From positions 22,826-86,825 of the IMG/VR virus record IMGVR_UViG_3300020174_001540: a stretch of DNA of 64,000 bases; one strand, written 5' to 3'. Made by a program: the position numbers and the translations under genes. The DNA comes from a virus. Under the pieces are notes generated by a model, which saw only the letters and a program-made list of their open reading frames with translations, did no database searches and had not been told where the DNA came from. This document shows positions 20,696 to 42,658 of this stretch, piece after piece; the stretch's first letter is position 1; every line of letters starts with the position of its first letter.

Positions 20696-21278
20696 ATTTC
20701 ATTCCATTATACATATCAATTGGTGCAGTGCCATTATAAGGATTGGCAATTGAGTTTACTAATCCGTGTTCAAACGTATTAAATTCAATACCTTCATGGA
20801 CAAGAAAACGATCTATACCTGCGTACTTTCTCATAAAGTAATCTTTATTTGACATAAAGTGATCCCAGATATGATTCTGTTCACCAGCAGTCCATGTGAT
20901 TACTGAACTATTTATGTGAACATCATAAGCATGAGGTGCCATGTATAAATCGTCTTTCCAATAATCTTTAATGATTGTTAACCCATCCCAATTCAACCAT
21001 GGGCGCGGATCAGCTTTAATATCCATGTCTAAATCAAAGAATAAACATTTACCTCTGACTGGAAAATCTTTACTAAACATTGCAAGTTTATTCCACCAAA
21101 ATCTAAGTGATGGTTTTTTGAAACATGGAATACACTCAATCTCAACATTCAACGGATTATCAGTATAGCACAAGTATTGAGAATTAGGATAGTATTCTCG
21201 TAGCTGATCTCTCAATCTGTTAACGTGTTCAGGGTCGTACTTGTCACCATGTTTCACAAATATAATATTATCGGTCAT
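20670..21278 (-). CDS. GT-A-like glycosyltransferase
   Basis: About 202 residues from the ATG at 21278, which has GAGGAA at better spacing than the ATG at 21287. CLFFDLDMDIKADPRPW near residue 75 is a DxD-type metal site, and WWNKLAMFSKDF precedes it. It is related in style to the DxD domains of the neighbouring two-domain protein. Acceptor unknown. Confidence 0.68.
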   Translation of the reverse strand: MTDNIIFVKHGDKYDPEHVNRLRDQLREYYPNSQYLCYTDNPLNVEIECIPCFKKPSLRFWWNKLAMFSKDFPVRGKCLFFDLDMDIKADPRPWLNWDGLTIIKDYWKDDLYMAPHAYDVHINSSVITWTAGEQNHIWDHFMSNKDYFMRKYAGIDRFLVHEGIEFNTFEHGLVNSIANPYNGTAPIDMYNGMKYELPRNTL

Positions 21279-22368
21279 TAATTGCATTCCTCAATAAGTT
21301 CATAATTTTTGTAACTGCATTCCTGCTATTACGGTTAGACAGGTTTAATATTTTTAGTCTATTCATTATATCTTCTAATACATCTTTTGATAACAAATTA
21401 ATATTCCAATTTTCAGTATGCTGCCGTCCTGCTCTATCATATGCATTTATAAACGCGCCAAAACCATTCCACTCCGCATATTTAAAAAACAAATCAATAT
21501 TTTCGGCATTGACTTTCATAAGAGTTGAATTAACTTTAATGTTTTCAGGACCTAATACATCTTTAAACTTTTGAATGTTATCCATTGTTTCATTATACTT
21601 ACCGCCAATTCTAATCATATCATATTCCGATTCAACAACAGTATCTAATGAAACTGAAAGACTAATGTTGTTTTCTTGGCACATCCTTAAAACTTTTTTA
21701 TTAAATACACTACCGTTAGTACAGATTTGTACTCTCATCTCAGGATTAATGTCGGCAATCAACGCACAAAGTTTATATAATGCTTTATGAGAAAACGGTT
21801 CTCCACCAACAAATCTTATCTCTTTTAGGTGTGGAATAAACTCGACAAACTGTTCAAGCAATTGTTCTAGGTTTTCATCATTATCAAACACGTTTGGATC
21901 ATATTGTTTAAGATCTTTATCGCGTCCTAACATATGTTTTGATGATAATTCGCCAAAGCACATTGGGCACGCCATATTACACAGATTACTAATTTCAAAT
22001 TCAAAAACTCTAGGCCATGAGTTAGCATCCATTGCGTGTTCTAATCTATCTCTGCCAACATTATAATCATATTCAATAATAGGTGGTGTTTCACCTTTAT
22101 CAATTCTTTTTTGACAAGCAGCCTGACAACCTGCACTTAATTTATTCTCAAGGAAGTCATCTTTATAAGTGTTGTTTAATTCACCAAACCAATAATCTTT
22201 TAAACCAAACTGATCTTTTTTCCATATTTTCATTTTACGGCTAAAGCAGCAAGGATGCATCCCGCCGTTTCTTCTTATTCGCATATGATTAAATGCGGCA
22301 TAGCATGAGATAATTTTATGTTCTTCGGGTATAGTTCGTTTACTTTGAAATAAATCCCACTTATTCAT
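21268..22368 (-). CDS. radical SAM protein
   Basis: A 366-residue radical SAM enzyme. The 4Fe-4S CxxxCxxC motif is NLCNMACPMCFG near residue 132, followed by VGGEPF near 194, which binds the SAM amino group. N-terminal cysteines (CYAAFNHMRIRR, HPCCFS) may hold extra clusters. The next gene is a second radical SAM protein with a similar layout, so they may work on one substrate or in sequence. Substrate unknown. Confidence 0.82.
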   Translation of the reverse strand: MNKWDLFQSKRTIPEEHKIISCYAAFNHMRIRRNGGMHPCCFSRKMKIWKKDQFGLKDYWFGELNNTYKDDFLENKLSAGCQAACQKRIDKGETPPIIEYDYNVGRDRLEHAMDANSWPRVFEFEISNLCNMACPMCFGELSSKHMLGRDKDLKQYDPNVFDNDENLEQLLEQFVEFIPHLKEIRFVGGEPFSHKALYKLCALIADINPEMRVQICTNGSVFNKKVLRMCQENNISLSVSLDTVVESEYDMIRIGGKYNETMDNIQKFKDVLGPENIKVNSTLMKVNAENIDLFFKYAEWNGFGAFINAYDRAGRQHTENWNINLLSKDVLEDIMNRLKILNLSNRNSRNAVTKIMNLLRNAINDR

Positions 22369-23572
22369 TATCTTTGTATTCCTTCAAATATGGAGCCAAA
22401 TCCCATATGTCTTCATTATTTTCACGTGCCACTAAACAAAAGTCAATCCATTCAACCATTCTTTCTTGTATCTCTGCCTTTTCGCCATTCCATTCTTCTT
22501 CTTGTGGTACAACACTTAATACGTTATTAGTATTACTCAAATCAAGTTTTGGGTTTCGCCAATAAAATTTATCGACTTGTTCAAATTTAGAATTAAGATA
22601 TTCAAATAGTTTATCAATACCTTCTTTTTGGTGATGATCCTCTAACCAAACAGGTGAACAATATTTTGGAAATGTAACAAGGTTTGCCATACTTACACGA
22701 GGCACACCAGGTACATCAATAAAGTAATCAATCAATTCTGGTAAGTGCATCCAATTATAAATTGAGACCGTTGCAACAACTATTACGATGCGTCCTTCGA
22801 CAGCGTGGTACCGATTGATATTATTTATTGTGCGTTCAAAGTTACCGCCACGGATCCAATCATATGTTTCGTGTACTCCATCAATACTTGCTTGAATGTG
22901 TACTTCTTCAATCTGATGTAAAATATCAATAACAGTATTAGTAACCAATTGAAAGTTAGTACAAATCTCAACACGGCATTTAGGATTTGTTTCCGCAACC
23001 TTTTTCAATATTTTTATATTGTTTGGGTCAGCAAATGGTTCACCACCTTTAATGGTTAGGTGCTGTAAATGTGGAACAAGATCAAGTACCTTATCAACAT
23101 CGGCGTCAGTCATCTTATACATATCAGTGTGGAATTTATGATTTTGGTTTCGCCAATCTAAACCAGACTCCACCGCCATTTTTTCATATGGTGCCCACTT
23201 TGACGAATACTTACCTGAACAGGTTACGCACATTTGGTTACAGATATTACTTGTTGTAAGCTCAAGAAACCTTATTGGTGTTACCTCAGCGGCAACGTCT
23301 TCTTCATATGTTGGAAATTTAAAACGGTTGTAAGTATCAAACCGAGCAAGGCGCCCTGCATCCCAATGGCGCCAACAGACATCACATTGAGGCGGGAATT
23401 TCTTTTCTTTAAAATCTGCACGGATTTGGTTGTATATATCACCGTTAAAGAACTCAGTTAAATCAGGAACATCTTTAATATGTGATACCGCAGTGTTATC
23501 ACCGGCACAGCATAAGACAATTTCTCCAATAGGATTGATTGTCAATCCAGTTTCAGGTACCATACATTTCAT
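22361..23572 (-). CDS. radical SAM protein, paralogue of its neighbour
   Basis: A 403-residue radical SAM enzyme. The cluster motif is NICNQMCVTCSG near 110-121 and the SAM-binding KGGEPFADP near 175. Cysteines at the N-terminus (GEIVLCCAGD and PPQCDVCWR) resemble auxiliary cluster ligands of peptide-modifying enzymes. Overlaps the second radical SAM gene by eight bases. A modified peptide or sugar product is possible. Confidence 0.82.
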   Translation of the reverse strand: MKCMVPETGLTINPIGEIVLCCAGDNTAVSHIKDVPDLTEFFNGDIYNQIRADFKEKKFPPQCDVCWRHWDAGRLARFDTYNRFKFPTYEEDVAAEVTPIRFLELTTSNICNQMCVTCSGKYSSKWAPYEKMAVESGLDWRNQNHKFHTDMYKMTDADVDKVLDLVPHLQHLTIKGGEPFADPNNIKILKKVAETNPKCRVEICTNFQLVTNTVIDILHQIEEVHIQASIDGVHETYDWIRGGNFERTINNINRYHAVEGRIVIVVATVSIYNWMHLPELIDYFIDVPGVPRVSMANLVTFPKYCSPVWLEDHHQKEGIDKLFEYLNSKFEQVDKFYWRNPKLDLSNTNNVLSVVPQEEEWNGEKAEIQERMVEWIDFCLVARENNEDIWDLAPYLKEYKDNE

Positions 23573-30078: not shown

Positions 30079-30086
30079 TATAAATA
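30079..30086 (+). promoter_or_regulatory. T4-type late promoter of the curli-like cassette
   Basis: A perfect TATAAATA about 20 bases before the first cassette gene, leaving GAGGAG in the leader. It implies that the whole rightward operon to 37479 is expressed late, under gp55. Confidence 0.7.
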
Positions 30087-30106
30087 ACCGTAGAGGAGTA
30101 TTAATT

Positions 30107-30385
30107 ATGGATTTTTTAACGCTTGTTGGTGATGTAGGTTTCCCTATTGCTGGTGCCCTAGCTGCCGGTGTATTTGTATTTATCACACTTAAGTTTATCC
30201 TTGCAAGCGTTACTGACACTGTAAATTCCCTCAAAAATATTATGACGGGTTTGGACAACCGAGTTCAGACTATGAATAACGATTTAGTGAAAATTGATGC
30301 CCTTTTAAGTTATGCTCTAAATGTTAAACCAAACATTGACCGCATAGCTGCAAATGAAGGCAAGGATGATGCAAGGAGAGATTAA
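30107..30385 (+). CDS. small membrane protein with coiled coil, holin-like
   Basis: A 92-residue protein. One hydrophobic helix (PIAGALAAGVFVFITLKFIL) near the N-terminus is followed by a heptad-like DNRVQTMNNDLVKIDALL and a charged tail. The same architecture occurs in the 126-aa protein at 30745-31125, so they are related. Such proteins look like phage holins or membrane scaffolds. First gene of the cassette. Confidence 0.65.
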   Translation: MDFLTLVGDVGFPIAGALAAGVFVFITLKFILASVTDTVNSLKNIMTGLDNRVQTMNNDLVKIDALLSYALNVKPNIDRIAANEGKDDARRD

Positions 30386-30555
30386 TGCTTTGGAAAGATT
30401 TACTATTAATGAAATTTAAAAATGGTTTTCGCATTCTCAATAACGACGATGATAAATTTTTTGTTATTGACGACGTGAAACTAAATATCGGTGACATTTA
30501 TCGAGTTGGCCCAAACGGTTACTTCGAGTTAATTGAAGAAGGACCGCCGCTATGA
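30385..30555 (+). CDS. small hypothetical protein
   Basis: A 56-residue protein starting in a TAATG overlap with the previous stop and preceded by AAGGAGAG. NNDDDKFFVIDDVKLNIGD and VGPNGYFEL suggest a small all-beta domain. Unknown function. The coupling supports it as a real gene. Confidence 0.6.
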   Translation: MLWKDLLLMKFKNGFRILNNDDDKFFVIDDVKLNIGDIYRVGPNGYFELIEEGPPL

Positions 30556-30743
30556 TGTGGATGGAATATGCGATTAATCAAGCTGGAAAAAACTTTGAAA
30601 TAAAAGGTGACTGGCCCGGAGAGGTTATGGGAAAACTAAAAGACGGTACGGATAAAGAATATTATCTATACAAACCAGGCGATAAGTTTATAGTTAATGA
30701 AGATGGTTGGTTGATGCATCACGGAAACATTAACGAGGAATAA
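30552..30743 (+). CDS. small hypothetical protein
   Basis: A 63-residue protein, ATGA-coupled to the previous gene. Aromatic and charged residues dominate (KGDWPGEVMGKLKDG, YYLYKPGDKF). No motif recognised. Together with its neighbours it belongs to the short genes before CsgF. Confidence 0.6.
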   Translation: MMWMEYAINQAGKNFEIKGDWPGEVMGKLKDGTDKEYYLYKPGDKFIVNEDGWLMHHGNINEE

Positions 30744-30744
30744 T

Positions 30745-31125
30745 ATGGAATTTGACATTGCAGGAGCCATAAGTGAATATGGATTTCCTATAGTTGCGGC
30801 TTTTGGAATGGGCTATTTTATATTTTTTATATGGAAATGGGTTACGGAAGTAATTGATCCGGTCCTAGGTGAAGCGATGTTTACTTTGATTAAATTAGTA
30901 GATCGTGTACGTATGCTTGATAATGATATGATTAGACTTAATAGCAAGTTATCTATGGTACTTGAATATAGGTCAAAACTAAATCCTAAGCGACAAGATG
31001 AGTTGCATAGGTTGGTTGCCGAATATCAGGCAGGTAGTAAAGCGTTTAATTCAACTGGGGTTGTAGATGAAGAAAATATTAACAATAGTGGCGGTGATGA
31101 TGCCGGCACAGGTAATAGCAAGTGA
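30745..31125 (+). CDS. membrane protein with coiled coil, holin-like paralogue
   Basis: A 126-residue protein. GFPIVAAFGMGYFIFFIWKWV is a membrane helix and KLVDRVRMLDNDMIRLNSKL a coiled coil, repeating the layout of the 92-aa protein at 30107-30385. Its 3' end encodes the start of CsgF in another frame over 59 bases. Confidence 0.65.
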   Translation: MEFDIAGAISEYGFPIVAAFGMGYFIFFIWKWVTEVIDPVLGEAMFTLIKLVDRVRMLDNDMIRLNSKLSMVLEYRSKLNPKRQDELHRLVAEYQAGSKAFNSTGVVDEENINNSGGDDAGTGNSK

Positions 31126-31528
31126 ATTAGTTTGGGGATTTAAATCTCCCGCTTTTCATTATGGTAATGGATATTCAACTCACGTTTTGTCGGTTGAACA
31201 ACTTTCTCACAACAGAAAACAAGATTATAAAGACGAGCAACAACGTATTGCCGATGAACTTGAGCGAGAAGCAGAAAATACTACTTTAGCCAAATTCCTT
31301 CGCAACGTAGAGTCAAGAATTTACGCTACGTTATCCAAACAAATGGTTGATGCTATGTTTGCCGATTGTGGCGACAGTTGTTCCAACAGCGGTTCAACTG
31401 ACCTTGAAGATAATACGATTGCTTGGTTAAGAGACCCGGTAACAGGTTCTATCACATTAACGATTACCGAAGCAGATGGTAGTACTACTGAAATCACAAT
31501 ACCAGGTGCTGGGGAGTTTAATTTCTAA
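31067..31528 (+). CDS. csgF: CsgF-like curli assembly factor
   Basis: A 153-residue protein with a signal peptide (cut after VIA, about residue 18). Mature start SELVWGFKSPAFHYGN matches the conserved N-terminus by which CsgF plugs CsgG. A middle SRIYATLSKQM-type helix and the C-terminal DPVTGSITLTITEADGS strand pattern also match CsgF. CsgF guides curlin subunits from the CsgG pore to the nucleator. It directly precedes CsgG, as in curli operons, although its start is buried in the previous gene. Confidence 0.85.
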   Translation: MKKILTIVAVMMPAQVIASELVWGFKSPAFHYGNGYSTHVLSVEQLSHNRKQDYKDEQQRIADELEREAENTTLAKFLRNVESRIYATLSKQMVDAMFADCGDSCSNSGSTDLEDNTIAWLRDPVTGSITLTITEADGSTTEITIPGAGEFNF

Positions 31529-32341
31529 ATGAGATTTTTACCCTTCATACTAATATTCTTTTTAAGTGCCTGCGCAACACCCGGAAGTTTGAAAGTTTTA
31601 GGTGACCTTGATAAATCTCCAACATTATCAGGAAGTCCTATTGATGATAGATTACTCGCCGTTCCTGAACTGTCAGGTCCAAAGATTACAATTGCAGTTT
31701 ATGAATTTGCCGATAAGACAGGTCAAAGAAAGACGAGTTCCAACTCATCATTATCAAGTGCCGTAACTCAAGGTGCTGAGGTTTGGGTAATTAAAGCATT
31801 ACAAGATGTGGGCAATCAAACATGGTTTGAGGTAGTTGAAAGAGTTGGCATTGATAATCTAATTAAAGAAAGACAGCTTATTCGCCAAACGCGTGAAGTA
31901 TATGAAAAAGAAAAAGAAAAAGGCCCGACACCTTTACAGCCAATGTTATTTGCCGGCTTATTACTTGAAGGTGGTGTTGTAGGTTATGACTCCGATACCG
32001 CGGCCGGTGGAGTAGGTGCAAGATTCCTAGGAGTCGGAGCCTCAACAGAATATAGAGTTGATACAGTAACAGTTGTTATGAGACTTGTGAGTGTTAATTC
32101 AGGAAAGGTGTTAATGAGTATCGCAACTGAGAAATCAATTGCAAGTTACAGATCTTCAACCGATGTATTTAAATTTATTGATTTAGGACAAGAAAATATT
32201 GAGGTTGAAAATGGGTATTCCGTAAATGAACCTGTGAACTATGCAGTAAGGGCTGCAATAGAACAGGGTGTGATAGAATTGGTTAAAGACGGGGTCGATA
32301 AGGGATTATGGTCGTATAAAATAAAAGAGATAAGAGGATAG
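31529..32341 (+). CDS. csgG: CsgG-like outer-membrane curli secretion pore (lipoprotein)
   Basis: A 270-residue protein against about 277 in E. coli CsgG. A lipoprotein signal ends in LSAC with Cys15 as the lipidated residue. KITIAVYEFADKTGQRK near 52-68, VWVIKALQDV and the RQLIRQTREVYEKE stretch are CsgG hallmarks, with FAGLLLEGGVVGYDSD near 136-151. CsgG assembles as a nonameric pore through which unfolded curlin passes. The neighbouring CsgF-like protein supports the call. Confidence 0.92.
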   Translation: MRFLPFILIFFLSACATPGSLKVLGDLDKSPTLSGSPIDDRLLAVPELSGPKITIAVYEFADKTGQRKTSSNSSLSSAVTQGAEVWVIKALQDVGNQTWFEVVERVGIDNLIKERQLIRQTREVYEKEKEKGPTPLQPMLFAGLLLEGGVVGYDSDTAAGGVGARFLGVGASTEYRVDTVTVVMRLVSVNSGKVLMSIATEKSIASYRSSTDVFKFIDLGQENIEVENGYSVNEPVNYAVRAAIEQGVIELVKDGVDKGLWSYKIKEIRG

Positions 32342-32343
32342 AA

Positions 32344-33081
32344 ATGAAGCATTTCATATTTTTGATTATGATGATGTTTGGTTCTGCAGCCTATGCCAAC
32401 GATATCTACATTACACAAAGCGGTGACAATTTAGATTTAGACATAACACAAGATGGGCAAGATAACGAATTCGGTGATAGTACCACTGATGCAACTTTGA
32501 CGGGTGATACAATGACTTTTAATATCACCCAAACAGGTGATTTTAACAAGATTGACGTTATCATTGATGGTAACAACTACACAGGTACTTGGGCATTTAC
32601 AGGTGACGATAACACTGTTGATATGACTTGTGATTCCGCATCAGGTTTGAATTGTGAAACAGTTCAGGTTGATGTTACTGTTATAGGTGATGATTCTGAC
32701 TTTAAGATTTACATTGGTGAAACAGCAGATGCCGATAGTTTAGTTGCTGACTTTACTGTTACAGGTGATGGTAACGCATTTTATCTTGATGCTGATGGCA
32801 CAAATCAGAATTTTGATGTTAATGTTAATTCAAGCGCAACATTACTTACAGCAGGTACAGATCGTACACATTTAACTTACGATGTTAATGCTGATAGTGC
32901 CGGTAACTTGATTGCTATTGACAGCACAGGAGATGGTGATGTTAATGGGCATGAAGTAGATCTTACAGTTACTGGTGGCGGCGGAGATTTTATTATTGTT
33001 CAAAGCGGTATTTACGATAATCTCGTAAACGCAACTTTCAGTGGAGATTCAGCAAATGTTCAAATTACACAATCTGATTAA
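32344..33081 (+). CDS. curlin-repeat protein, CsgA/CsgB-like
   Basis: A 245-residue secreted protein (signal peptide to about residue 18, FGSAAYA). The body carries repeats of the Q/N-G-D/N type: IYITQSGDNLDLDITQDGQDN, then TLTGDTMTFNITQTGDFNKID, then further D/N-rich turns. This is the curlin amyloid pattern, but long and less regular than CsgA, so it could be the fibre subunit or a minor component. It follows CsgG directly. Confidence 0.75.
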   Translation: MKHFIFLIMMMFGSAAYANDIYITQSGDNLDLDITQDGQDNEFGDSTTDATLTGDTMTFNITQTGDFNKIDVIIDGNNYTGTWAFTGDDNTVDMTCDSASGLNCETVQVDVTVIGDDSDFKIYIGETADADSLVADFTVTGDGNAFYLDADGTNQNFDVNVNSSATLLTAGTDRTHLTYDVNADSAGNLIAIDSTGDGDVNGHEVDLTVTGGGGDFIIVQSGIYDNLVNATFSGDSANVQITQSD

Positions 33082-34226
33082 TGAAATTTCATACTATTGG
33101 CTTCATTGCCATTCTGCTGATACCGAGCTTATGCTTTGGCGCTGTAGATGAAGATGCGGGGGCAATCGGTGAATTTTCAGGATCAGGAGTCATTGAGCGT
33201 GGGAGAGATGTTATTGATGGTGGCCAAGGTGTTGGGGTGCAACCCATGGATACCGCCGTCACAGCAAAAGGCCGAATGCGAATCGACTTTATTGATGATA
33301 CGAGAGTCGATATTACCGAACACGCAAGGTTAGTAATTGATGATTTCGTTTATGACCCAAATGCTGGGACTGGTAAGCTGGGATTACGTGCGACATTGGG
33401 AACAGTACGCTATGCGTCTGGAGCAATTGCAAAGAACAGCAGAAGAAACGTCAGCATCAAAACACCGTCAGCAACGATAGGTGTACGTGGTACTGATTTC
33501 GTTATGGTGGTTGATGAAATAGGTGGCACGATGGTGACATTATTACCATCGTGTTCCATCGACTCCCTCGGAAAAACCAATTGCGTGACCGGTGAAATTT
33601 CAGTTGAGTCTGACACCGGGTTTGTTATTATGAATAAAGCATTTCAGGCAACAATAGTAAAAAGCAGATGGACAAAACCAACTAAGCCATTATTATTGGC
33701 GCTTAATGAAAGTGACATAACAAACCTTTTGATTTTAAGAAAGAAAAAACCTTTATTTGAAGAAGATGGGCAACCATTAGAACAAATGACGGATTTCCTA
33801 GATATAGATTTCTTAAATTTTGACGGTTTGGATGTTGATATTTTATCCGATAGTATTAAAGACATATGGTTAACAGAGTTTGATTTAAGAGATAGTGATT
33901 ATTATCTCGGTGAACTACTACACGACATGGTTGAACAATTAAACATTGCTTTAATGCGAAGACTTATGGGTGAATTAGATGCACAGAATGCCGAGTTCTT
34001 TAATTTCAGAGAAGAAGGTTATGATCCTGTAACAAGAATTACTTTAAACAGAGAAGATCCTAGTTGGATTTTTGAAAGAGACGATAGTGGTTATTATCAC
34101 CACCTAAGAATATATGTGGAGCAGCAATATGGATATACGATTAATATCCAACAACAGGACGAGTATGTTTGGGATTACCGTCTTGGCGTTGGTAATAATA
34201 ATATTGACATCATCCAAATCAAATAG
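33081..34226 (+). CDS. secreted FecR-domain protein
   Basis: A 381-residue protein with a signal peptide (FIAILLIPSLCFGA). Residues about 35-165 form a FecR-like beta domain ending in SIKTPSATIGVRGTDFV, which is the family hallmark. The C-terminal half is helical, without a clear domain, and the last residues NNNIDIIQIK look like a curlin repeat. FecR proteins are usually periplasmic sensors, but the domain also appears in surface adhesin loci. Its last 98 bases overlap the next gene. Confidence 0.75.
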   Translation: MKFHTIGFIAILLIPSLCFGAVDEDAGAIGEFSGSGVIERGRDVIDGGQGVGVQPMDTAVTAKGRMRIDFIDDTRVDITEHARLVIDDFVYDPNAGTGKLGLRATLGTVRYASGAIAKNSRRNVSIKTPSATIGVRGTDFVMVVDEIGGTMVTLLPSCSIDSLGKTNCVTGEISVESDTGFVIMNKAFQATIVKSRWTKPTKPLLLALNESDITNLLILRKKKPLFEEDGQPLEQMTDFLDIDFLNFDGLDVDILSDSIKDIWLTEFDLRDSDYYLGELLHDMVEQLNIALMRRLMGELDAQNAEFFNFREEGYDPVTRITLNREDPSWIFERDDSGYYHHLRIYVEQQYGYTINIQQQDEYVWDYRLGVGNNNIDIIQIK

Positions 34227-35007
34227 TGGACCAAATGAAGTTTATATGTATCAAACAGGTGACGACTTTACGTTAACTATCACCCAAGATGGCAGTCAGA
34301 ATTATATAACTGGTGTAAGTGGACAGACTAAAGGTATTGAAGGTGACAACAATACGGTTGATATGGTACAAATAGGACAGTATCATGGTATCGCAGGAAT
34401 GTTAGATGGTGATAACAATAACATAGATTTTTATCAAGGTGGCGGTGGTGACAGCGGAATGATTACTGCAATGGTAACAGGTAATAATAATGACCTGGTG
34501 GTGTGGCAAGGTAAGCATCCTGATGGTACAACTGACTTGTCAGAAGGCGGTGACCACACTGCAACGGTTACCATTACTGGTGATTATAATGATATTAAGG
34601 CCGGACAAACTGATCAAGGACAAATTAATCAAACTTATGGTAGGCATGAATTAACCGCAGAAATTACCGGTGATAGCAATGATGTTGGAATGACACAAAA
34701 AGGAAATCAAAAGCATACATTGGACCTTGATATTTCTGGTGATGGTAATGATGTTACAACTTATCAGCGTGGTGATGGCGGACAAAAAACTGCAACCATT
34801 GAAGTTTCTGGCAACTATAACGTAATTGATGTAAACCAACGTGGAACAAATTCAGCGTCAGCAACCATTTCAGTAGAAAGCATATATGGTCCTGCCTATA
34901 ATGTAACACTTAGCCAACAAACCGACACTTCTGCTAAATCATTTTCTTTAAGTGGTGTATGTAATGATCCAAATGGATGTGTCGTAAGTGTCGAGCAACA
35001 CAACTAG
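34129..35007 (+). CDS. second curlin-repeat protein
   Basis: About 292 residues. The ATG at 34129 is preferred because GGAG lies before it, giving a hydrophobic N-terminal signal (ITVLALVIIILTSS). The mature part has a long series of imperfect 20-30 residue repeats with D-N-N-V/I-D, QIGQ and TGD turns, for example TQKGNQKHTLDLDISGDGND. The repeat content is higher than in the 245-aa protein, so this may be the main fibre subunit. Overlaps the FecR gene by 98 bases. Confidence 0.75.
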   Translation: MDIRLISNNRTSMFGITVLALVIIILTSSKSNSGPNEVYMYQTGDDFTLTITQDGSQNYITGVSGQTKGIEGDNNTVDMVQIGQYHGIAGMLDGDNNNIDFYQGGGGDSGMITAMVTGNNNDLVVWQGKHPDGTTDLSEGGDHTATVTITGDYNDIKAGQTDQGQINQTYGRHELTAEITGDSNDVGMTQKGNQKHTLDLDISGDGNDVTTYQRGDGGQKTATIEVSGNYNVIDVNQRGTNSASATISVESIYGPAYNVTLSQQTDTSAKSFSLSGVCNDPNGCVVSVEQHN

Positions 35008-35015
35008 GAGAAGTA

Positions 35016-35126
35016 ATGGATACAGTCGTCGCGTTTTTCATAGCAGGATTTTTTACAGCATTCGGTTGGTGGGCAGCAAACAAAATAACAACCCAAATTG
35101 ATACACATATTGAGCAGGCTGAGTAA
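35016..35126 (+). CDS. 36-aa membrane peptide
   Basis: A single hydrophobic helix (VVAFFIAGFFTAFGWWAA) followed by a short tail. A GGAG site precedes the ATG and the stop overlaps the next start (TAATG). Small peptides of this kind are common in phage lysis or secretion loci, but a role is not shown. Confidence 0.55.
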   Translation: MDTVVAFFIAGFFTAFGWWAANKITTQIDTHIEQAE

Positions 35127-35488
35127 TGGATTTAATTTTAAGTTTGGCTTTGTCAACACATTTGGGTCTTTCTCAAGATTATAATGAAATTCATCCTCAT
35201 ATAAGATTAACTAATGATAAATATATCGCAGGCGCATATTATAACAGCGTCGAAAAATTGAGTGTATACTCAGGAATAAAATATAGTTATGGTGATATTG
35301 CAATAGAAGGAGGTGTGGCTACAGGCTATAGGCCACATCCAATAGCTCCTTATGGTAGGGTAACCTACGATTACGTGGATAATATAAGATTATTTGGGAC
35401 TACGGCATTTGAATCCGACGGCTCTGCAGCTCGAGGAGGAATTGTATTAGGAATAGAATTTATACTAAATCCACGGGAGAAGCAATGA
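35126..35488 (+). CDS. small beta-barrel-like outer-membrane protein
   Basis: A 120-residue protein with a short hydrophobic start and alternating beta strands (YIAGAYYNSVEKL, SVYSGIKYSYGDIAI, GGIVLGIEFI). Such a pattern fits an outer-membrane barrel or half barrel, perhaps 6-8 strands. It could stabilise or localise the CsgG pore. Family not identified. Confidence 0.55.
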   Translation: MDLILSLALSTHLGLSQDYNEIHPHIRLTNDKYIAGAYYNSVEKLSVYSGIKYSYGDIAIEGGVATGYRPHPIAPYGRVTYDYVDNIRLFGTTAFESDGSAARGGIVLGIEFILNPREKQ

Positions 35489-37479
35489 AACATTTACTAT
35501 TAACAACTGCATTAGTCATACCAAGCTGGGCTATTGCTGATACTTCGAGTTTACAAACATCATCTCACGGTTTACTTGAGAACCAATGGGTTAAAGCTGG
35601 CATTAATAAAGACTCAGGCACATTTGGCTCTGGCGGAAGTACATCACCGGGCCTGTTATTTGATCCTGAAGGTTCGGGTACATTTAATTCTAGTTATGAT
35701 TATCTGACGCCTGGCTCGCCGTTTGACGGACAAGCACTAAAGGTAGATGGCACAAATAAAGCAAATAATAATACAGGCTCAAAAACTATCGTTGACTCTG
35801 ACGGTTTAACAGACGGCACAGACAGCATGACTTGGAGTGGTGATGTTGATGTTGATGGCGGTACATGGAATGTTGAAAATACATTTACATTAGAAGATAA
35901 TAAACCATACATTGATGTTGAAACAAAAATTACCGCAGGTTCTGATGCTGATACTGTAGCATATGGTAAATTTATTGACCCAGACTCACAAGGTATGCCG
36001 GGAGATAGTTCATCAACAGATAACGTACTTGGGTATTCAGGTGTTCCTGATACAAACATTGCCTTTTCAGAAGCAACTGTTTCAAAGTATGCATTAGGTG
36101 TTTATTCAACGGATACAAACACTACTGCAGGCGTCAATGGTTGGTCACAAGAAGCAGATGGATATAACGGAACAAGTTATACAGATGCCGAAGGCAATGC
36201 TGTCAATTACGGCAATTCAGATGATACTATTGGTATTAGTTGGTCTTGGACTGGTGTATCAACAGGCGACATTCTTACAGCAAAATATGCTTATATCTTC
36301 GGCCCATCAGCGTTTGATGCACTTGATGATGCAGTAGATGGTGGAGCAGGCGGTGGTACTCCTGGTGAATTACCTACAGGGTGGTCACTTGATGATGTTG
36401 GATCAGCAACAGATGCTGCCGAAAGCGGCGGAGCACCAACAGTTGTAAGTACCGCAACCGAAACTATTACTTCAACATCAGAAGCAATAAGCACAACACT
36501 ACCTGTTTTAACTGGTGCAATCACAACGCATGACTCATCTACAGCTGACGGTGTTCAAACTATTGACCGTGAAACTACTACGACTGTAACAACACCGATG
36601 GATGTAACAACCACAAGCTTTGTTAGAACTACTGATACTATGAGTGACGGCAGCGAAGTTGTTACAGACGGTACTCCAACATCAACTACAGTTGTTCGTA
36701 ATGATGCTGTTGTAACTGTAACTGATCCAGGTTCATTCGTTGGACGTATGGATCAAGCATCGCAATTAATCGGATTAAATACTCATCGCAATTTAAATAT
36801 AGCTGATGGCGTATCAGTAGGTCGCATTAACCATTCGATGGGTGATAACTACGAAGCAACATCAACGGTGGTTGGTCTTGGTCACACACTTGTAACCGAC
36901 GATGCGTTAAGACTAAGCCTAGGTATTAATAGAATTGATACTGAAATGTCAGAAGGCGGCGATGGTGAAATAATAACAAACGCTGTGTCTGCTGAATTAG
37001 GAAAGGCAATAGAAGATAAAGACATTACCGTCGTAGGACGAGTAAACATGGCTAAATCTGATATTGAATATTCAAGAACAATCGGTACTTTTTCTGCGGC
37101 AGGTGAAACATCAGCTTCTGACGTTTCTGCTGGGCTAACAATTGAAAAATCAACTGGTTCTGTTAGACCTTTCGGTGGATTAACTATCGGAAAATCAAGC
37201 ACTGATGGATGGACTGAAACCGGAGATGTTCAAGCTGTTTTAACTCATGATGAAGCAGACGCTACATACAGATATGGTACAATAGGTTTCAATATTGATG
37301 AAGGACCAATTACCGCTACATTTAGTAAAAACATTGGCGACAATGATGCCACTAATATAAGAATTGGTTTTGAACAAGAAATAAATGAATATGCTATTGT
37401 CGGTGTAGATTATAATAGAACTTTGGATGAAGATAATTCAAGCAATTATTTCTCAGCAGGTATCAAGATACGGTTTTAA
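35485..37479 (+). CDS. autotransporter-like outer-membrane protein
   Basis: A 664-residue protein with a signal peptide (cut near AIADTS). The N-terminal 270 residues form a secreted beta-rich domain, a Ser/Thr-rich linker spans about 300-410, and from about 420 to the end is a barrel domain with alternating strands finishing in NYFSAGIKIRF, where C-terminal Phe is the outer-membrane insertion signal. It resembles an autotransporter adhesin without a recognisable passenger enzyme. It closes the cassette, tail to tail with the minus genes. Confidence 0.75.
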   Translation: MKHLLLTTALVIPSWAIADTSSLQTSSHGLLENQWVKAGINKDSGTFGSGGSTSPGLLFDPEGSGTFNSSYDYLTPGSPFDGQALKVDGTNKANNNTGSKTIVDSDGLTDGTDSMTWSGDVDVDGGTWNVENTFTLEDNKPYIDVETKITAGSDADTVAYGKFIDPDSQGMPGDSSSTDNVLGYSGVPDTNIAFSEATVSKYALGVYSTDTNTTAGVNGWSQEADGYNGTSYTDAEGNAVNYGNSDDTIGISWSWTGVSTGDILTAKYAYIFGPSAFDALDDAVDGGAGGGTPGELPTGWSLDDVGSATDAAESGGAPTVVSTATETITSTSEAISTTLPVLTGAITTHDSSTADGVQTIDRETTTTVTTPMDVTTTSFVRTTDTMSDGSEVVTDGTPTSTTVVRNDAVVTVTDPGSFVGRMDQASQLIGLNTHRNLNIADGVSVGRINHSMGDNYEATSTVVGLGHTLVTDDALRLSLGINRIDTEMSEGGDGEIITNAVSAELGKAIEDKDITVVGRVNMAKSDIEYSRTIGTFSAAGETSASDVSAGLTIEKSTGSVRPFGGLTIGKSSTDGWTETGDVQAVLTHDEADATYRYGTIGFNIDEGPITATFSKNIGDNDATNIRIGFEQEINEYAIVGVDYNRTLDEDNSSNYFSAGIKIRF

Positions 37480-37915
37480 ATCTCGGTAACACCACACCGC
37501 ATTGTTCCATAATCTTATAGAGTGTAAGTAATGCTTCGCACTCAAATTCATGGTAGGTTTTTTGATTTAAAACAATTGTATCTAATTCAGGAATGTCCAT
37601 AGGGGCTATTACAATCTTATGAGGTAATAGCCCGCCGACATTAACAAGTCCTTCGACAATAGGAGAGTTTGCTCTTGTTGTAATACCGATGATACAGTCA
37701 GCAAAAGTTCCGTATTCATATATCCATCTTTTATGCCAACCCTCATCACCACCCAAGGCGGTTAGGTGAATAGCATCAGGTGCAAAGCAATGTTTGCCAA
37801 GATGCCTTGTCATATCAGATGCAGCGTGTTGAGCAATAGCAAGGTTTCCGCCATTGCCTACAATAGCAATCTTTGGTGAATGAGATATTTTTTTAATAAG
37901 ATTAAGATCTATCAA
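37463..37915 (-). CDS. SIS-domain phosphoheptose isomerase-like protein (GmhA type)
   Basis: A 150-residue protein with GNGGNLAIAQHAASDM near 21-36, close to the GNGGSAADAQHFAAEL segment of GmhA, and GITTRANSPIVEGL near 76-89. GmhA makes D-glycero-heptose for LPS core. It lies next to a KdsB-like gene, so the pair may alter LPS. The 3' end overlaps the autotransporter gene by 17 bases. Confidence 0.75.
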   Translation of the reverse strand: MIDLNLIKKISHSPKIAIVGNGGNLAIAQHAASDMTRHLGKHCFAPDAIHLTALGGDEGWHKRWIYEYGTFADCIIGITTRANSPIVEGLVNVGGLLPHKIVIAPMDIPELDTIVLNQKTYHEFECEALLTLYKIMEQCGVVLPRFKTVS

Positions 37916-38591
37916 GGTATTCCTCCACTAATTTTATATCGTCTGGTACATCAACCGCAGGTGTACGTTCATTAATCATATATGGTATAACATCAACCAT
38001 TCCTATGAATGCTAATGTGTCTAGTCCTTTATGTGCATATACTAATTCTTGATCATATTCTGGAAAATGCATAATTGTACCAAGATCATATGCATATAAG
38101 CCATTAATACCAACAAGATTAGGACTATCAATTAATTCACGGTCAGGTGTTCGTGTTAAGTAAACAATTTTCCCATTGCTGATAACAGCCTTAACTACGT
38201 TTACATTACTTCTTTCTTCATCGGTTAATGGATAACAACACTGAACCATTTCAGCATTTGTTTCAAACATTTTACGAATGATTCCAGATATCATTTCAGG
38301 TGTAACACACGGTTCATCACTTTGTAAATTCACAATATAATCAGCATCAGTTTGAATAACCGCCTCAGCAACTCGTGAAGTACAAGTGTTGTGAATCTTT
38401 TTTGTTTTAATAAGATTAGGCGCCCATATGCTGTCGTATTCGTCAGCAGCTACATATACTTTATTAATATCTGCGCAAGCGTTCGCGTTATCAATACAAT
38501 GATTAAGAACAGATTTACCGTTTACTTCGGCAAATATTTTGCTTGGGAAACGAGTTGATCCTGTTCTTGCTGGTATAATACAATCAATCAT
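37902..38591 (-). CDS. KdsB-like CMP-sugar cytidylyltransferase
   Basis: A 229-residue nucleotidyltransferase. CIIPARTGSTRFPSKIF near 4-20 is the KdsB (CMP-KDO synthetase) N-terminus, and VNLQSDEPCVTPEMI near 87-101 is the Asp-containing metal loop (KdsB has QGDEP). It would activate KDO or a related acidic sugar with CTP. It lies beside the GmhA-like gene, supporting LPS sugar supply. Confidence 0.82.
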   Translation of the reverse strand: MIDCIIPARTGSTRFPSKIFAEVNGKSVLNHCIDNANACADINKVYVAADEYDSIWAPNLIKTKKIHNTCTSRVAEAVIQTDADYIVNLQSDEPCVTPEMISGIIRKMFETNAEMVQCCYPLTDEERSNVNVVKAVISNGKIVYLTRTPDRELIDSPNLVGINGLYAYDLGTIMHFPEYDQELVYAHKGLDTLAFIGMVDVIPYMINERTPAVDVPDDIKLVEEYLDRS

Positions 38592-39414
38592 TTAATATAT
38601 TCCTTATTTCCTCGGGTTTCAAATATGATATAGTTGAATACTCGATAGGTGCGGATACAGCTTCATTTCTGAATTGTAATATTTTGTTTGGGCTGATACC
38701 CATAAATCCCCACGTGTCGGGTAAGTTATCATAATAGTGAGTATATTTGGTTGTCGGTGTTCCCGTCATTCCTGCGGTGTAATAAGTACCGCCGTCATAA
38801 CTAAAATGGTGTGTGGTTGATAACAATATATCATAGATTTCTTCCATTGTCAAGGAGTAATGAATAAATTTTACACCATACCCAAACTCGTGAGCAATTT
38901 TAGTTATGTTCGGTAATATTGTTTTTTCTTTTTCCATTAATCCGCCGATCCGTCGCTTTGACATTAACGGTTCAGATTTATGAATTGAAACGAATTTACC
39001 TTTCTTATTCCATTGTTTTTTAAACGGCCATAATTGATTTACCGTCCAAGGTGTTGCAACTGTCTGCTTTTGTTCGTACCGATATATGCTTACAATCATA
39101 CCATTCTTAGGAGGTAGCATATTATTAAGAAACCATTTCATAACATCATATGAGGTTTCGGCATTACTAGGTTTACGTTTAAATGGATTGATAAATTGTT
39201 CAGGCCACATAATAGAAACACGATATGGGCCTTGTGCATAGTCTTCATCTGACATTAATTGTGCTTTAAAGAAAACATCACTTAATAAACACATAATAGT
39301 GCAGTGAGCATGGGCTGTATCAGCACAAAAACGTACTATGTGGGATGATGTTGGCAGTGAAATGCTTTTATTATTTTCACAACCTATATAAATAGTTTCA
39401 ATTAGATTTGCCAT
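38584..39414 (-). CDS. hypothetical, possible GT9-like glycosyltransferase
   Basis: About 276 residues from the ATG at 39414, which has GGAT at normal spacing (the ATG at 39426 is less well placed). A C-terminal FSYDGGTYYTAGMTGTP resembles the HxGxxHLAxxxGxP loop of heptosyltransferases (GT9), and with GmhA-like and KdsB-like neighbours this is plausible. The assignment is weak, and it may have a different role. Confidence 0.5.
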   Translation of the reverse strand: MANLIETIYIGCENNKSISLPTSSHIVRFCADTAHAHCTIMCLLSDVFFKAQLMSDEDYAQGPYRVSIMWPEQFINPFKRKPSNAETSYDVMKWFLNNMLPPKNGMIVSIYRYEQKQTVATPWTVNQLWPFKKQWNKKGKFVSIHKSEPLMSKRRIGGLMEKEKTILPNITKIAHEFGYGVKFIHYSLTMEEIYDILLSTTHHFSYDGGTYYTAGMTGTPTTKYTHYYDNLPDTWGFMGISPNKILQFRNEAVSAPIEYSTISYLKPEEIRNILND

Positions 39415-39437
39415 GATATAATCCATTAATAAAATAA

Positions 39438-39457: not shown

Positions 39458-39580
39458 ATGATAGGTCAAGAGAGATTTTGTAAAAAGTGTGGTCACCGCT
39501 GCCACTGTTATGCATCAGACTGTAAAGAATGCGTCAATGATGTTTGCACAAGCTGCGACTGCAAGAAAGATAAAGAATGA
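39458..39580 (+). CDS. 40-aa cysteine-rich peptide
   Basis: Nine cysteines and two histidines in 40 residues, in pairs like FCKKCGHRCHC, DCKECVNDVC and CTSCDC, so it must bind zinc or another metal. A perfect AAGGAG ribosome site precedes the ATG, and the stop overlaps the adenylate cyclase start (ATGA). It could be a metal-binding adaptor or a small sensor regulator, but that is speculation. Confidence 0.6.
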   Translation: MIGQERFCKKCGHRCHCYASDCKECVNDVCTSCDCKKDKE

Positions 39581-41619
39581 AAAATATTTTATTATCTCCT
39601 ATATGGAGCATATTATTGTTAGGGTTACTTGCTTGGCTGCATACTATTAATCCTTCATTCATTGAAAGTTTAAGATTACGGTATTTTGACCAGCTTATTG
39701 TAAATCAAGAGGTTGTCCCAAATAACATTTATTCAGTAAACATTGATGAAGATGCAATAACCGAATATGGACAATGGCCATTTCCTAGACAAGTATACTC
39801 AGAATTTATTATAGATCTGTACAATAGAGGTGCAGGTCTTGTTGTTTTAAATATTCTTATGTCTGAACCTGATAGATCCGGCGGAGATGAAGACCTTGCT
39901 ATAACTATGCAGCAAGTACCAATAATTTTAACCATGCTTGGAGCTGAGGAGAACAAAAATGAAGCGATTAATCCAGGAGCCTCTATTATTAATAGCGATT
40001 ATATTTCTCTCATTCCAAGTGTACCTGGGATTATCGCTAACATCAATGAGCTTGAAACTAATGCAGTGGGGTCAGGAATCATCAACACATTCCCAGAGAT
40101 CGACGGGGTTACCCGCAGAGCACCGTTGGTATTCGAGTCCGGGGGGAACCTCTTCCCTAATGTCACCCTTGAGGTATTGCGAGTCCTTGCCGGAGACCCA
40201 TCCTTCCAAATCAAGTTGTCGCCGCTCGGGGTTGATAAATTAAGAATACCACAATTTGGAATGATACCAACAAATGAGGTTGGCGAGGTATGGATAGATT
40301 GGTCTCAAGGTTATCAATCAGAATCAATAATGAATTTGCCAGATGATTTAGGAGGTGCTGTAGTATTTGTTGGACCAACAGCTGCAGGTACTATTCAACC
40401 GATTTCAACTGCGGTTGGTGGAGTATATCCACAAGAAATACAAGCAGCAATGCTTGGTACTGTATTTAATGAGTCAAACATCACACGTCACGCCGATGCA
40501 AAAGCATGGGGTGAACTGGCTGCTCTAATTGTAGCAGGGCTATTAATAATTGGTTTATCCTATTGGACTTTTATAGGCATCGGCGCATTCGTATTAACGA
40601 TTGGCGGCTTTATAGGAGGGTCTATCTATGTATTCCAAAGTTCAAATTTACTTATTGACGGCATCACTATTTCTGTTATGCTGTTCCTTGTTGGTAGTTT
40701 ACGATATATTGTAAAATTCGTAGACGAGTTTTTACAGAAACAAGCAATCAAAAAACAATTCGCGGGTTACGCTTCACCAACGGTTGTTAAGTTATTACAA
40801 GAAAATCCGTCGTTAGTTAAGGATGGGCAAAAGAAAGACGTATCAATAGTATTCAGTGACCTTCGCGGTTTTACTCCTTTAGGAGAAAGCTTTGGCGATG
40901 ATGTTAAAGGCTTAACGGAGATTATGAATGGTTATATGGATGCAATAACCGAACCAGTATTAGATGCCAATGGCATGATTATTAAGTATATCGGCGATGC
41001 TTCAATGCATATTCACAACGCACCGATAGATGATCCTGACCACCCACGAACCGCGGTGCAAGTGGCTTTCAAAATGCTGAAAGCAGTGGAGAAATTTAAT
41101 GTGGCACTTCAAAGAAGTAACCGGCCGCCAGTGGGCATGGGTGCTGGTATTAATTCTGGCCTGGGTTACATTGGGGAGATGGGTAGTAGTAAGCGGCACA
41201 GCTACGACATACTTGGGGATGCTGTATCAACAGCAGCAAGAATTGAGTCTAAATGTAAAGAATATGGAATGGTACTCCTCATTGGAGAAGAAACGCAACG
41301 CCACACAGCTGATGAATTCTTTTACCTCAAGATCGACGACTTGGCAGTCAAAGGTAAATCGGTAGGAATTGGAATTTGGACAGCACTTGATGATGTAAAA
41401 CAACCATGGTATGCAGCACAGAAAAAACACCAAGAAATGTTTGCTGCGTATCAAGCACAAGATTTTGATAAAGCTATTGAACTATGTGATATATTACATG
41501 GCCACTTTGATAATAAAATGGACGGATATTATGATATGTGGAAAGAAAGATGTGAATATATGAAAACACAAGACCTTCCAGAAGATTGGAACGGCGTATT
41601 TATTGCGACCACAAAATGA
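39577..41619 (+). CDS. CHASE2-domain adenylate cyclase
   Basis: A 680-residue membrane cyclase. TM1 is at 8-22. The CHASE2 periplasmic sensor spans about 30-305 (YSVNIDEDAITEYGQWPFPR near the start). Three transmembrane helices follow at about 310-375, then a class III cyclase domain at about 415-600. Metal Asp residues lie in VFSDLRGFT (about 428) and IGDASMHIHN (about 473), and Lys in IIKYIG with Asp in YDILGDAVS are the adenine-selecting residues. It would make cAMP in the host inner membrane in response to an envelope signal. Base composition is uneven along the gene. Confidence 0.88.
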   Translation: MKNILLSPIWSILLLGLLAWLHTINPSFIESLRLRYFDQLIVNQEVVPNNIYSVNIDEDAITEYGQWPFPRQVYSEFIIDLYNRGAGLVVLNILMSEPDRSGGDEDLAITMQQVPIILTMLGAEENKNEAINPGASIINSDYISLIPSVPGIIANINELETNAVGSGIINTFPEIDGVTRRAPLVFESGGNLFPNVTLEVLRVLAGDPSFQIKLSPLGVDKLRIPQFGMIPTNEVGEVWIDWSQGYQSESIMNLPDDLGGAVVFVGPTAAGTIQPISTAVGGVYPQEIQAAMLGTVFNESNITRHADAKAWGELAALIVAGLLIIGLSYWTFIGIGAFVLTIGGFIGGSIYVFQSSNLLIDGITISVMLFLVGSLRYIVKFVDEFLQKQAIKKQFAGYASPTVVKLLQENPSLVKDGQKKDVSIVFSDLRGFTPLGESFGDDVKGLTEIMNGYMDAITEPVLDANGMIIKYIGDASMHIHNAPIDDPDHPRTAVQVAFKMLKAVEKFNVALQRSNRPPVGMGAGINSGLGYIGEMGSSKRHSYDILGDAVSTAARIESKCKEYGMVLLIGEETQRHTADEFFYLKIDDLAVKGKSVGIGIWTALDDVKQPWYAAQKKHQEMFAAYQAQDFDKAIELCDILHGHFDNKMDGYYDMWKERCEYMKTQDLPEDWNGVFIATTK

Positions 41620-41921
41620 TTAGAACTTTATTTGAAATGTTCTTTAAAAATTATATTGATGAACAAATAGACAAACGGTTCACGGAGAATATGATTGAAA
41701 GATACTGGGCTCAAAGACAGAATGAAACATCAAGACGACTTCAACAAGCAAGAGATCGCTACAAGATTGATTATCCGCCTTCCCATGAGGCCGAGCAAGA
41801 TATGTCCGAGCCCAAAGTATTGTCCAGTGGTGACTTACGATGGGACGACGCCAAATCCCGAGTACAAACAAAAACCACTACATCTTCGTTAAAAGATAAA
41901 CTAAAGGGGATTAACAAATGA
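41616..41921 (+). CDS. hypothetical acidic/basic helical protein
   Basis: About 101 residues from the ATG at 41616 (ATGA overlap with the cyclase). FEMFFKNYIDEQIDKRFTE and RRLQQARDRYKIDYPPSHE suggest helices, with a disordered tail. No family recognised. Between a cyclase and a lipase it may be an accessory protein of either. Confidence 0.55.
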   Translation: MIRTLFEMFFKNYIDEQIDKRFTENMIERYWAQRQNETSRRLQQARDRYKIDYPPSHEAEQDMSEPKVLSSGDLRWDDAKSRVQTKTTTSSLKDKLKGINK

Positions 41922-42658
41922 TAGAAAAATGCGCAACTATGGCTCAGTGTGCTCAAATAGCATATATGGACGGTAAAGAAGCAAAAGCTGAATATAAAAA
42001 GTTAGGTTATACACAACATAAATTTATTGAAAAGGATGGTGCTCAGGTACACCTTATTCAGAATAAGAACGAAATTGTTTTATGTTTCCGTGGTACAGAG
42101 CCTGGTGAATTTTCTGATATTAAAGCAGATCTAAATGCTATGCCCGACAAAGCAAACAACGGATCAGGTCTTGTCCATAACGGTTTTCAAACAGAAGTTG
42201 ATAAAGTATGGGTTGCAATTGAAGCAGCATTGGCAAAGGCAAAACCTAAAGACCTATTCATATGCGGACATTCATTAGGTGGTGCAATGGCAACAATTGC
42301 AACATCTCGTTTGGCTGATGGTCCTTGGAATCCTGTGGCATTATATACATATGGATCACCGAGAGTTGGTACTCGTAAATTCGTCAAGAGTTTTAAAAAT
42401 GTTACTCACTATCGCCATGTCAACAATAATGATTTGGTAACAACTGTACCGTTTGCACTTATTGGCTATAGACATCATTGCCCACCACGTTATATTAATT
42501 ACTACGGTAATATTAGAAAAATGTCGAAGTGGCAAAGAATTAAAGACAAGTGGCGCGGCCGTTGGAGAGCATTGAAAAAAGGTATGCCTTTTGATGGTGC
42601 ATATGACCACGGTATGAACCATTACTGCAAATACACGGAGCAAAATAATGATAGATAG
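41918..42658 (+). CDS. class 3 lipase-like hydrolase
   Basis: A 246-residue alpha/beta hydrolase. FICGHSLGGAMATIATSRL near 114-132 has the GHSLGG nucleophile elbow, and VALYTYGSPRVG near 142-153 and VTHYRHVNNNDLVTTVP near 164-180 match the lipase-3 family, the latter including the catalytic Asp. The His is in GAYDHGMNHY near the end. It could cleave phospholipid or storage lipid; lysis help is an attractive idea because small membrane proteins follow. Confidence 0.82.
   Translation: MIEKCATMAQCAQIAYMDGKEAKAEYKKLGYTQHKFIEKDGAQVHLIQNKNEIVLCFRGTEPGEFSDIKADLNAMPDKANNGSGLVHNGFQTEVDKVWVAIEAALAKAKPKDLFICGHSLGGAMATIATSRLADGPWNPVALYTYGSPRVGTRKFVKSFKNVTHYRHVNNNDLVTTVPFALIGYRHHCPPRYINYYGNIRKMSKWQRIKDKWRGRWRALKKGMPFDGAYDHGMNHYCKYTEQNNDR

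Follow-up and report, generated by a model that had tools for sequence, protein, structure and literature searches.

The systems closest to the locus described here are the curli system of Escherichia coli (CsgA-G), the curli genes of marine phages, a chromosomal operon in two Caulobacteraceae metagenome-assembled genomes, and the BiofilmReg operon of Burkholderia. Phage csgF and csgG genes, which are widespread in the sea, were reported by Zaragoza-Solas et al. (2020, PMC7029224), who proposed "sibling capture" and called the function of the phage curli genes unclear. A report from 2022 (PMC9599517) describes podo- and myoviral pelagiphages that carry CsgF, CsgG, CsgA/B, FecR, another CsgA/B, a gene labelled "histidine kinase" and an adenylate cyclase, and mentions detection of phage curli genes in metatranscriptomes. 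Another report from the same year (PMC9004378) discusses csgG and csgF and proposes a pinholin or secretin role. We analyzed a curli-like locus on a stretch of 64,000 nucleotides (the window; all positions below refer to it), which is part of the 86.8 kb virus record IMGVR_UViG_3300020174_001540. The locus appears to encode a type VIII secretion module, probably active late in infection, for the display of curlin-like fibres, with a coupled surface-signalling branch leading to an adenylate cyclase. We put the probability of this reading at about 50%. The secretion genes of the predicted module are well supported by their profile matches; fibre formation and signalling are what we infer from the gene set as a whole.

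Two small membrane proteins, csgF, csgG, curlin, FecR, curlin and cyclase follow each other in the same order in the phages HTVC008M (NC_020484) and Melnitz (MZ577097). Since these phages share the order and PMC9599517 reports the whole set, this kind of cassette is already known, and the statement of the initial annotation that the whole set was undescribed does not hold. The window differs from HTVC008M and Melnitz in three additional proteins (a peptide of 36 amino acids (aa), a small barrel-like protein and an autotransporter-like one), in a cyclase that is set apart by three sugar-type genes, and in a CsgG that is only 48-49% identical to theirs. CsgG, CsgF and curlin repeats are shared with the E. 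coli system, but there is no CsgE match in the window module, and FecR, cyclase and the membrane proteins M1 and M2 are added. With the Burkholderia operon, which consists of FecR and a CHASE2-kinase and is tied to biofilm (PMC5192318), the module shares a secreted FecR-domain protein beside a CHASE2 sensor. The operon there has a kinase output and a LysM domain, whereas the module here has a cyclase and a curlin-like tail on the FecR protein. New in our analysis are the constant linkage of M1/M2 and cyclase, the curlin-tailed FecR adaptor, and a chromosomal counterpart. In a search of open-licence main texts, we found neither a curlin-like FecR tail nor a chromosomal operon of curli genes, FecR and cyclase described. 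Together, the FecR tail, the tail-less FecR controls from loci without curli, the constant presence of cyclase and M1/M2, and the chromosomal operon turn a gene list into one testable circuit.

All open reading frames (ORFs) named in the initial annotation were found at their plus-strand places, with overlapping or closely spaced starts. Its identification of CsgF, CsgG and the FecR-domain protein was confirmed by Pfam scores of 45.0, 170 and 35.9 bits, all over cut-off, and the CsgG and CsgF scores, whose failure it had named as one possible refutation, were both significant. CsgF (31067-31528, on the plus strand like all module genes of the window) matched PF10614 (cut-off 25.8 bits) over positions 7-132 of 132 in the profile, belonged to phrog_35372, and was 48% identical to the CsgF of HTVC008M. 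CsgG (31529-32341), the predicted outer-membrane lipoprotein pore, matched PF03783 (cut-off 20.8 bits) and, at 2.6e-50, the solved CsgG structures, with homology across residues 42-266. A lipobox ending in LSAC is visible in this protein, and its Cys15 was kept in 106 of 107 aligned proteins. Searches of solved structures gave two chance-level matches for CsgF and none for CurB.

The two repeat proteins, CurA (32344-33081) and CurB (34114-35007, with the true start, judged by eye, probably at 34165), both have apparent signal peptides. CurB matched Curlin_rpt with 49.5 bits in four stretches. CurA by itself scored 19.0 bits, slightly below the cut-off of 20.7, and in the alignment of its family 23 of 31 members matched Curlin_rpt at E<=0.01. 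These matches, direct for CurB and through its family for CurA, bear out the earlier description of a phage-borne curli-like secretion cassette that includes curlin-repeat proteins of its own.

Relatives of the locus were taken as the best 80 of 116 CsgG loci and the best 80 of 402 M1 loci, and both sets lean to near relatives because the best-scoring rows were used. Loci with at least 2.5 kb before and at least 9.5 kb after CsgG, repeats of the same CsgG dropped, were considered full-reach; there were 32, of which 25 came from the CsgG scan and 7 from the M1 scan, whose loci contain M1 by construction. CsgF, CsgG, curlin, FecR, cyclase, M1 and M2 were all present in 25 of the 25 loci from the CsgG scan, two curlins in 24 of them, and the full gene set also in the 7 further loci. 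Among loci with distinct CsgG, M1 was in front on the same strand in 56, M1/M2 faced the cyclase in a convergent arrangement in 36, and 4 were arranged otherwise.

The initial annotation had confined the cassette to 30079-37479. The genes that it named lie there, but it missed a CHASE2 adenylate cyclase at 39577-41619 (CHASE2 111.8 bits, Guanylate_cyc 61.5 bits) and two small genes, S1 (30385-30555, 56 aa) and S2 (30552-30743, 63 aa). In the survey of 80 CsgG loci the cyclase recurred as a module gene, and it belongs to the module, beyond the end point first given. In the window, three minus-strand genes separate it from the rest. S1 and S2 accompany the module in part of the loci, namely in 10 and 14 of the 25 full-reach loci of the CsgG scan, respectively; they lie between M1 and M2 in the window and after the cyclase in Melnitz.

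A tblastn search of 50,697 phage records with CsgG matched 12, the best being HTVC008M and Melnitz. The source of the window fits a T4-type phage, because the phrog_262 DNA polymerase was found in 7 of 7 long records tested and the window also holds topoisomerase II, clamp loader and SbcCD-like genes. The module ranges beyond SAR11 and OM43 phages of about 145 kb: contigs of about 195-330 kb carry it too, and in four of these the DNA polymerase is a more divergent member of the same family.

The FecR-domain protein (33081-34226) carries, in this order, an apparent signal peptide, a FecR/PupR-type beta domain, a disordered linker, a helix, and a curlin-like C-terminal tail (residues 313-379, encoded at 34017-34217). 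PF04773 (cut-off 24 bits) was matched by this protein and by 32 of 32 aligned relatives. In the AlphaFold model (mean pLDDT 80.9), the beta domain comprises residues 27-193 and is followed by the low-confidence linker, the helix (residues 274-308) and a run of short strands to residue 379, with regular strands of 6-8 residues between 320 and 379. The fold of the beta domain matched the PupR cell-surface-signalling domain with a Z score of 15.0 and two putative anti-sigma factors with about 14. It also matched the "cell surface anchoring domain" 5ix9 with a Z score of 10.4, the next row having 4.9; the molecule name in this entry is "antifreeze protein", and we take it to be a domain of an ice-binding RTX adhesin. 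The structure comparison barely covers the tail, for which no solved homologue is claimed, and a search of solved structures with the FecR profile gave nothing below 0.1.

The tail was recognized by a motif and by profile comparison. The motif [IVL]x[IVL]xQ ends 81 of 83 FecR proteins with distinct ends (proteins of at least 340 aa, repeats with identical last 60 residues dropped; 90 of 93 if they are kept), and it also ends 149 of 205 curlins. Elsewhere it is rare, at 4 of 1261 other ORFs of at least 150 aa (3 of 972 distinct ones), 0 of 98 CsgF, 0 of 109 CsgG and 1 of 104 cyclases. Ile375 and Gln379 were invariant across 32 aligned FecR proteins. In hhalign comparisons, the FecR tail aligned end to end with the C-terminus of CurB at E 1.2e-4 and with CurA at 8.9e-4, while the other module segments tested gave 0.023 or worse, and none of 150 column shuffles reached the score of the FecR tail against CurB or CurA.

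In the cyclase, Asp428, Lys470, Asp474 and Arg555 were kept in 76 of 76 distinct cyclases of at least 640 aa, a set to which the shorter HTVC008M cyclase does not belong. We presume these to be the two metal-binding Asp, the substrate Lys and the transition-state Arg, the remaining catalytic position being that of the transition-state Asn. The catalytic residues at positions 544 and 551 (window numbering) are coupled in the 76 proteins, with D and S together in 66, T or S with N in 9, and D with N in 1. Cyclase activity is plausible.

A genome scan with the phage CsgG alignment yielded 26 loci. Two closely related contigs of Caulobacteraceae metagenome-assembled genomes (MAGs), L170 and L171 (GC 0.54 and 0.57), carry the order csgF-csgG-curlin-curlin-FecR-cyclase. 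By eye, the neighbours in L170 look like ordinary bacterial genes. These operons share with the phage module the set of csgF, csgG, curlins, FecR and CHASE2 cyclase, and their curli-linked FecR carries the curlin-like tail motif. They differ in that no M1/M2 match was found in them, there is no autotransporter, and both curlins lie ahead of FecR. Their existence argues against the statement in PMC9599517 that curli operons of bacteria do not contain FecR and cyclase. As a control, 30 alphaproteobacterial CHASE2 loci were inspected, of which 4 hold a FecR protein. In these four, all complete and beside a CHASE2 cyclase, the tail motif was found in 0 of 4, and the stretches of 10.9-14.5 kb around them had no CsgF, CsgG or curlin match.

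Within the family of L170, CsgF was found in 21 of 299 genomes, and FecR plus cyclase in the genomes of L170 and L171 only; in the other 19 CsgF-bearing genomes, neither FecR nor a cyclase was matched within the stretches covered, some of which are short. A CsgF match was found in 7 of 385 genomes of the class of L170, 6 of them above cut-off. In a gammaproteobacterial MAG (L176/L203), csgF, csgG, curlins and FecR also occur together, with no cyclase match in 19 kb. In a CsgG tree, 31 phage rows fall on one side of a branch (support 89/75), and L170/L171 group with five contigs from MAG bins that resemble phage contigs (99/90). Transfer in either direction is thus compatible with the tree, which was built from rows other than the MAG loci 165-169, 172, 179 and 189 and the duplicate or odd rows 203, 204, 229, 238 and 239.

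Several curli-module contigs binned in MAGs (L165, L166, L180, L168, L179, L174, L175, L177 and L178) resemble phage contigs. They are assigned to Rhodobacteraceae Water_Bin34, Pelagibacter, Synechococcus, Sphingobacteriales and Saprospirales MAGs. The call is based on the presence of M1 or M2 and on low GC, with M1 in all nine except L168 (3 kb). Phage contigs binned in MAGs in this way could mislead claims that curli belong to the bacteria concerned.

M1 (30107-30385, 92 aa) has one apparent transmembrane segment and an amphipathic helix; its relative M2 (30745-31125, 126 aa) has one apparent transmembrane segment. Both are members of phrog_18771, a family of unknown function (3.5e-30 and 5.8e-28). 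Cassette genes were within reach in 78 of the best 80 M1 loci, the exceptions being L101, with only a short cyclase stretch, and L140. The 6 matches to M1 among 50,697 phage records were all HTVC008M or Melnitz records with curli. Because cassette genes accompany M1 in 78 of 80 loci and in 6 of 6 phage records, M1 and M2 look like dedicated, phage-specific parts of the module. In 385 genomes of the class of L170, M1 gave one weak match only (E 6.4e-4, part of a 343-aa frame). We infer from position that M1 and M2 are the genes before csgF that PMC9599517 labels "histidine kinase". If it refers to these genes, the label finds no support, as neither Pfam nor PHROGs gave a kinase domain match in either protein.

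The box that the initial annotation had described in front of the cassette, TATAAATA, is present as an exact match at 30079-30086 on the plus strand. Chance alone predicts 8.3 copies in the window, and 8 were found, so that its meaning rests on conserved position and not on abundance. Half of the distinct colinear relatives (24 of 48) carry it no more than 150 nucleotides upstream of M1, against a random rate of about 0.8%. Upstream of other genes it was seen for CsgG in 0 of 99, FecR in 0 of 89, M2 in 1 of 96 and curlins in 2 of 175 cases, and also for CsgF in 11 of 92 and cyclase in 11 of 82. It was rare in convergent loci (M1 3 of 38, CsgF 3 of 36). The box resembles the T4-type late promoter consensus. 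The module is probably expressed late in infection.

Taken together, these observations suggest the following mechanism. The curlins would be exported through CsgG/CsgF and assemble into short amyloid-like fibres on the infected cell. The FecR domain would stay periplasmic, as adhesin retention modules remain in the periplasm (PMC13090378), and the FecR tail may join a curlin in or below the pore, so that the FecR protein could serve as anchor or nucleator and also as reporter. The CHASE2 domain would then read the state of fibre or FecR and set host cyclic AMP (cAMP). An S. meliloti CyaD1 from which CHASE2 was deleted makes cAMP constitutively (PMC5498481). Candidate benefits to the phage are exclusion of rivals, holding siblings together, or timing. 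A more specific version of this scheme is possible but tentative: the FecR-curlin hybrid might plug or cap the CsgG-bound fibre from the periplasmic side, and the cyclase might sense release or strain through CHASE2, so that surface contact or fibre completion would be turned into cAMP, with M1/M2 as the phage-specific inner-membrane part of the circuit.

Several observations weigh against fibre display coupled to a cyclase. The initial annotation had noted the absence of CsgE, and indeed 0 of 9 records matched, with a positive E. coli control; the two Caulobacteraceae MAGs searched gave no CsgE match either. CsgE has been described as dispensable for E. coli curli (PMC7029224). For the FecR tail, the hhalign probability was 55% untrimmed and 72% trimmed against CurB, and 23% and 19% against CurA, and the Pfam profile Curlin_rpt matched the tail in 0 of 32 proteins at E<=1. 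The FecR of L176 is without the tail motif. Cyclase activity is unsure, because 66 of 76 cyclases, the one in the window (Ser551) among them, have Ser where the transition-state Asn usually lies (Asn in 10). Finally, cultures of Melnitz showed no clumping according to PMC9004378.

A minor possibility is a passive superinfection coat, in which the curlin-like and barrel proteins alter the surface only and FecR and cyclase are inherited passengers. The surface-sugar-like genes inside the cassette of the window and the recurrence of the autotransporter-like protein in the slot before the cyclase would suit such a coat. Against it, FecR and cyclase persist in all 25 full-reach loci of the CsgG scan, and the Asp/Asp/Lys/Arg set is retained in every one of the 76 cyclases.

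Lysis was suggested for the locus both in the initial annotation and in PMC9004378; in this reading, CsgG or M1/M2 would serve as a pinholin-like pore or an outer-membrane pore and set the time of lysis. The late-type promoter is compatible with this proposal, and so is the 221 kb contig with the cassette of the window, in which neither GH108 nor Phage_lysozyme was matched. The two membrane proteins that the initial annotation called holin-like are both present; a weak likeness, which would suit a lysis role, was seen for M1 (holin family phrog_4898, E 0.0083), and M2 matched no holin PHROG. We consider a lysis module unlikely. M1 and M2 are tied to the module and not to phages generally, and in both cultured relatives, HTVC008M and Melnitz, a GH108 hydrolase is encoded away from the cassette. 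In addition, a pore alone needs neither curlins nor FecR nor cyclase, all of which are constant in the full-reach loci, and CsgF spans nearly the whole Pfam profile.

The constriction of CsgG was also examined as a possible sign of a leaky lysis pore. Residues Y51, N55 and F56 of E. coli CsgG, in what we take to be its standard numbering, align with S, S and L in the CsgG of the window, and the F56 position is occupied by L in 97 of the 107 aligned phage proteins, by I in 6, by F in 3 and by G in 1. The constriction residues are uninformative, because several bacterial CsgG loops likewise carry L or I at this position; the change thus lends no weight to a lysis pore.

It is quite improbable that the locus is an iron or nutrient module, with a pore for the uptake of large molecules and FecR as a regulator that responds to iron, as proposed in PMC9599517 and PMC7029224. 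The FecR Pfam match and the PupR-like fold agree with this proposal, but no cytoplasmic anti-sigma part was seen in the FecR protein, where an apparent signal peptide alone precedes the FecR-type domain, and the protein bears a curlin-like tail. Importer logic also leaves two curlins and CsgF unexplained. The supposed iron regulator looks rather like a fibre-linked periplasmic adaptor, and the findings argue against the label "iron-dependent regulator" as they do against "histidine kinase". That the repeat proteins are virion parts and not secreted fibres, for which the late-type promoter might be adduced, is very improbable given their apparent signal peptides, their linkage to CsgG/CsgF, and the related curlin genes in chromosomal curli operons.

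Between CurB and the cyclase, the window has a 36-aa membrane peptide (35016-35126), a small barrel-like protein (35126-35488) and the autotransporter-like protein (35485-37479, 664 aa), all on the plus strand. Among the surveyed CsgG loci, the peptide and the small barrel occurred only in near-identical contigs; the barrel is partly similar to a PHROG named PagP (phrog_3600, 1.2e-8, part of the profile). The model of the autotransporter-like protein has 12 C-terminal strands (pLDDT 65.9, pTM 0.42), and its best Foldseek match was the NalP translocator 1uyo (E 1.5e-7, TMt 0.62). If near-identical copies are counted, relatives lie ahead of the cyclase in 5 of the 80 CsgG loci and in 14 of the 80 M1 loci. 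The protein is an optional occupant of the slot, since a relative was present in just 2 of the 25 loci with full reach from the CsgG scan. In other loci (L029, L036, L042, L050, L056 and L025) the slot between CurB and the cyclase, or after CurB, is filled differently, by a recurring 160-aa protein that carries a hydrophobic segment at its C-terminus, by a protein of 139-142 aa, or by both, each of unknown function.

The three minus-strand genes at 37463-39426 encode a protein with a weak SIS match, a CTP_transf_3 cytidylyltransferase and a 280-aa protein of unknown kind, and look like surface-sugar genes. Among phages more distant from the window, Brevundimonas phages of about 350 kb have a CsgG-domain gene (Kabachok, L004, 5860-6750); at this locus, the sole one of the kind inspected, no other cassette gene matched within 6 kb. 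A csgG-like gene is also found in OR851715.1, an unannotated "Salmonella phage" record of 1499 bases that is perhaps host DNA. Elsewhere in the window, a class 3 lipase gene (83 bits) follows the cyclase at 41918-42658 on the plus strand, and two adjoining radical SAM genes of the same PHROG lie on the minus strand at 21268-22368 and 22361-23572.

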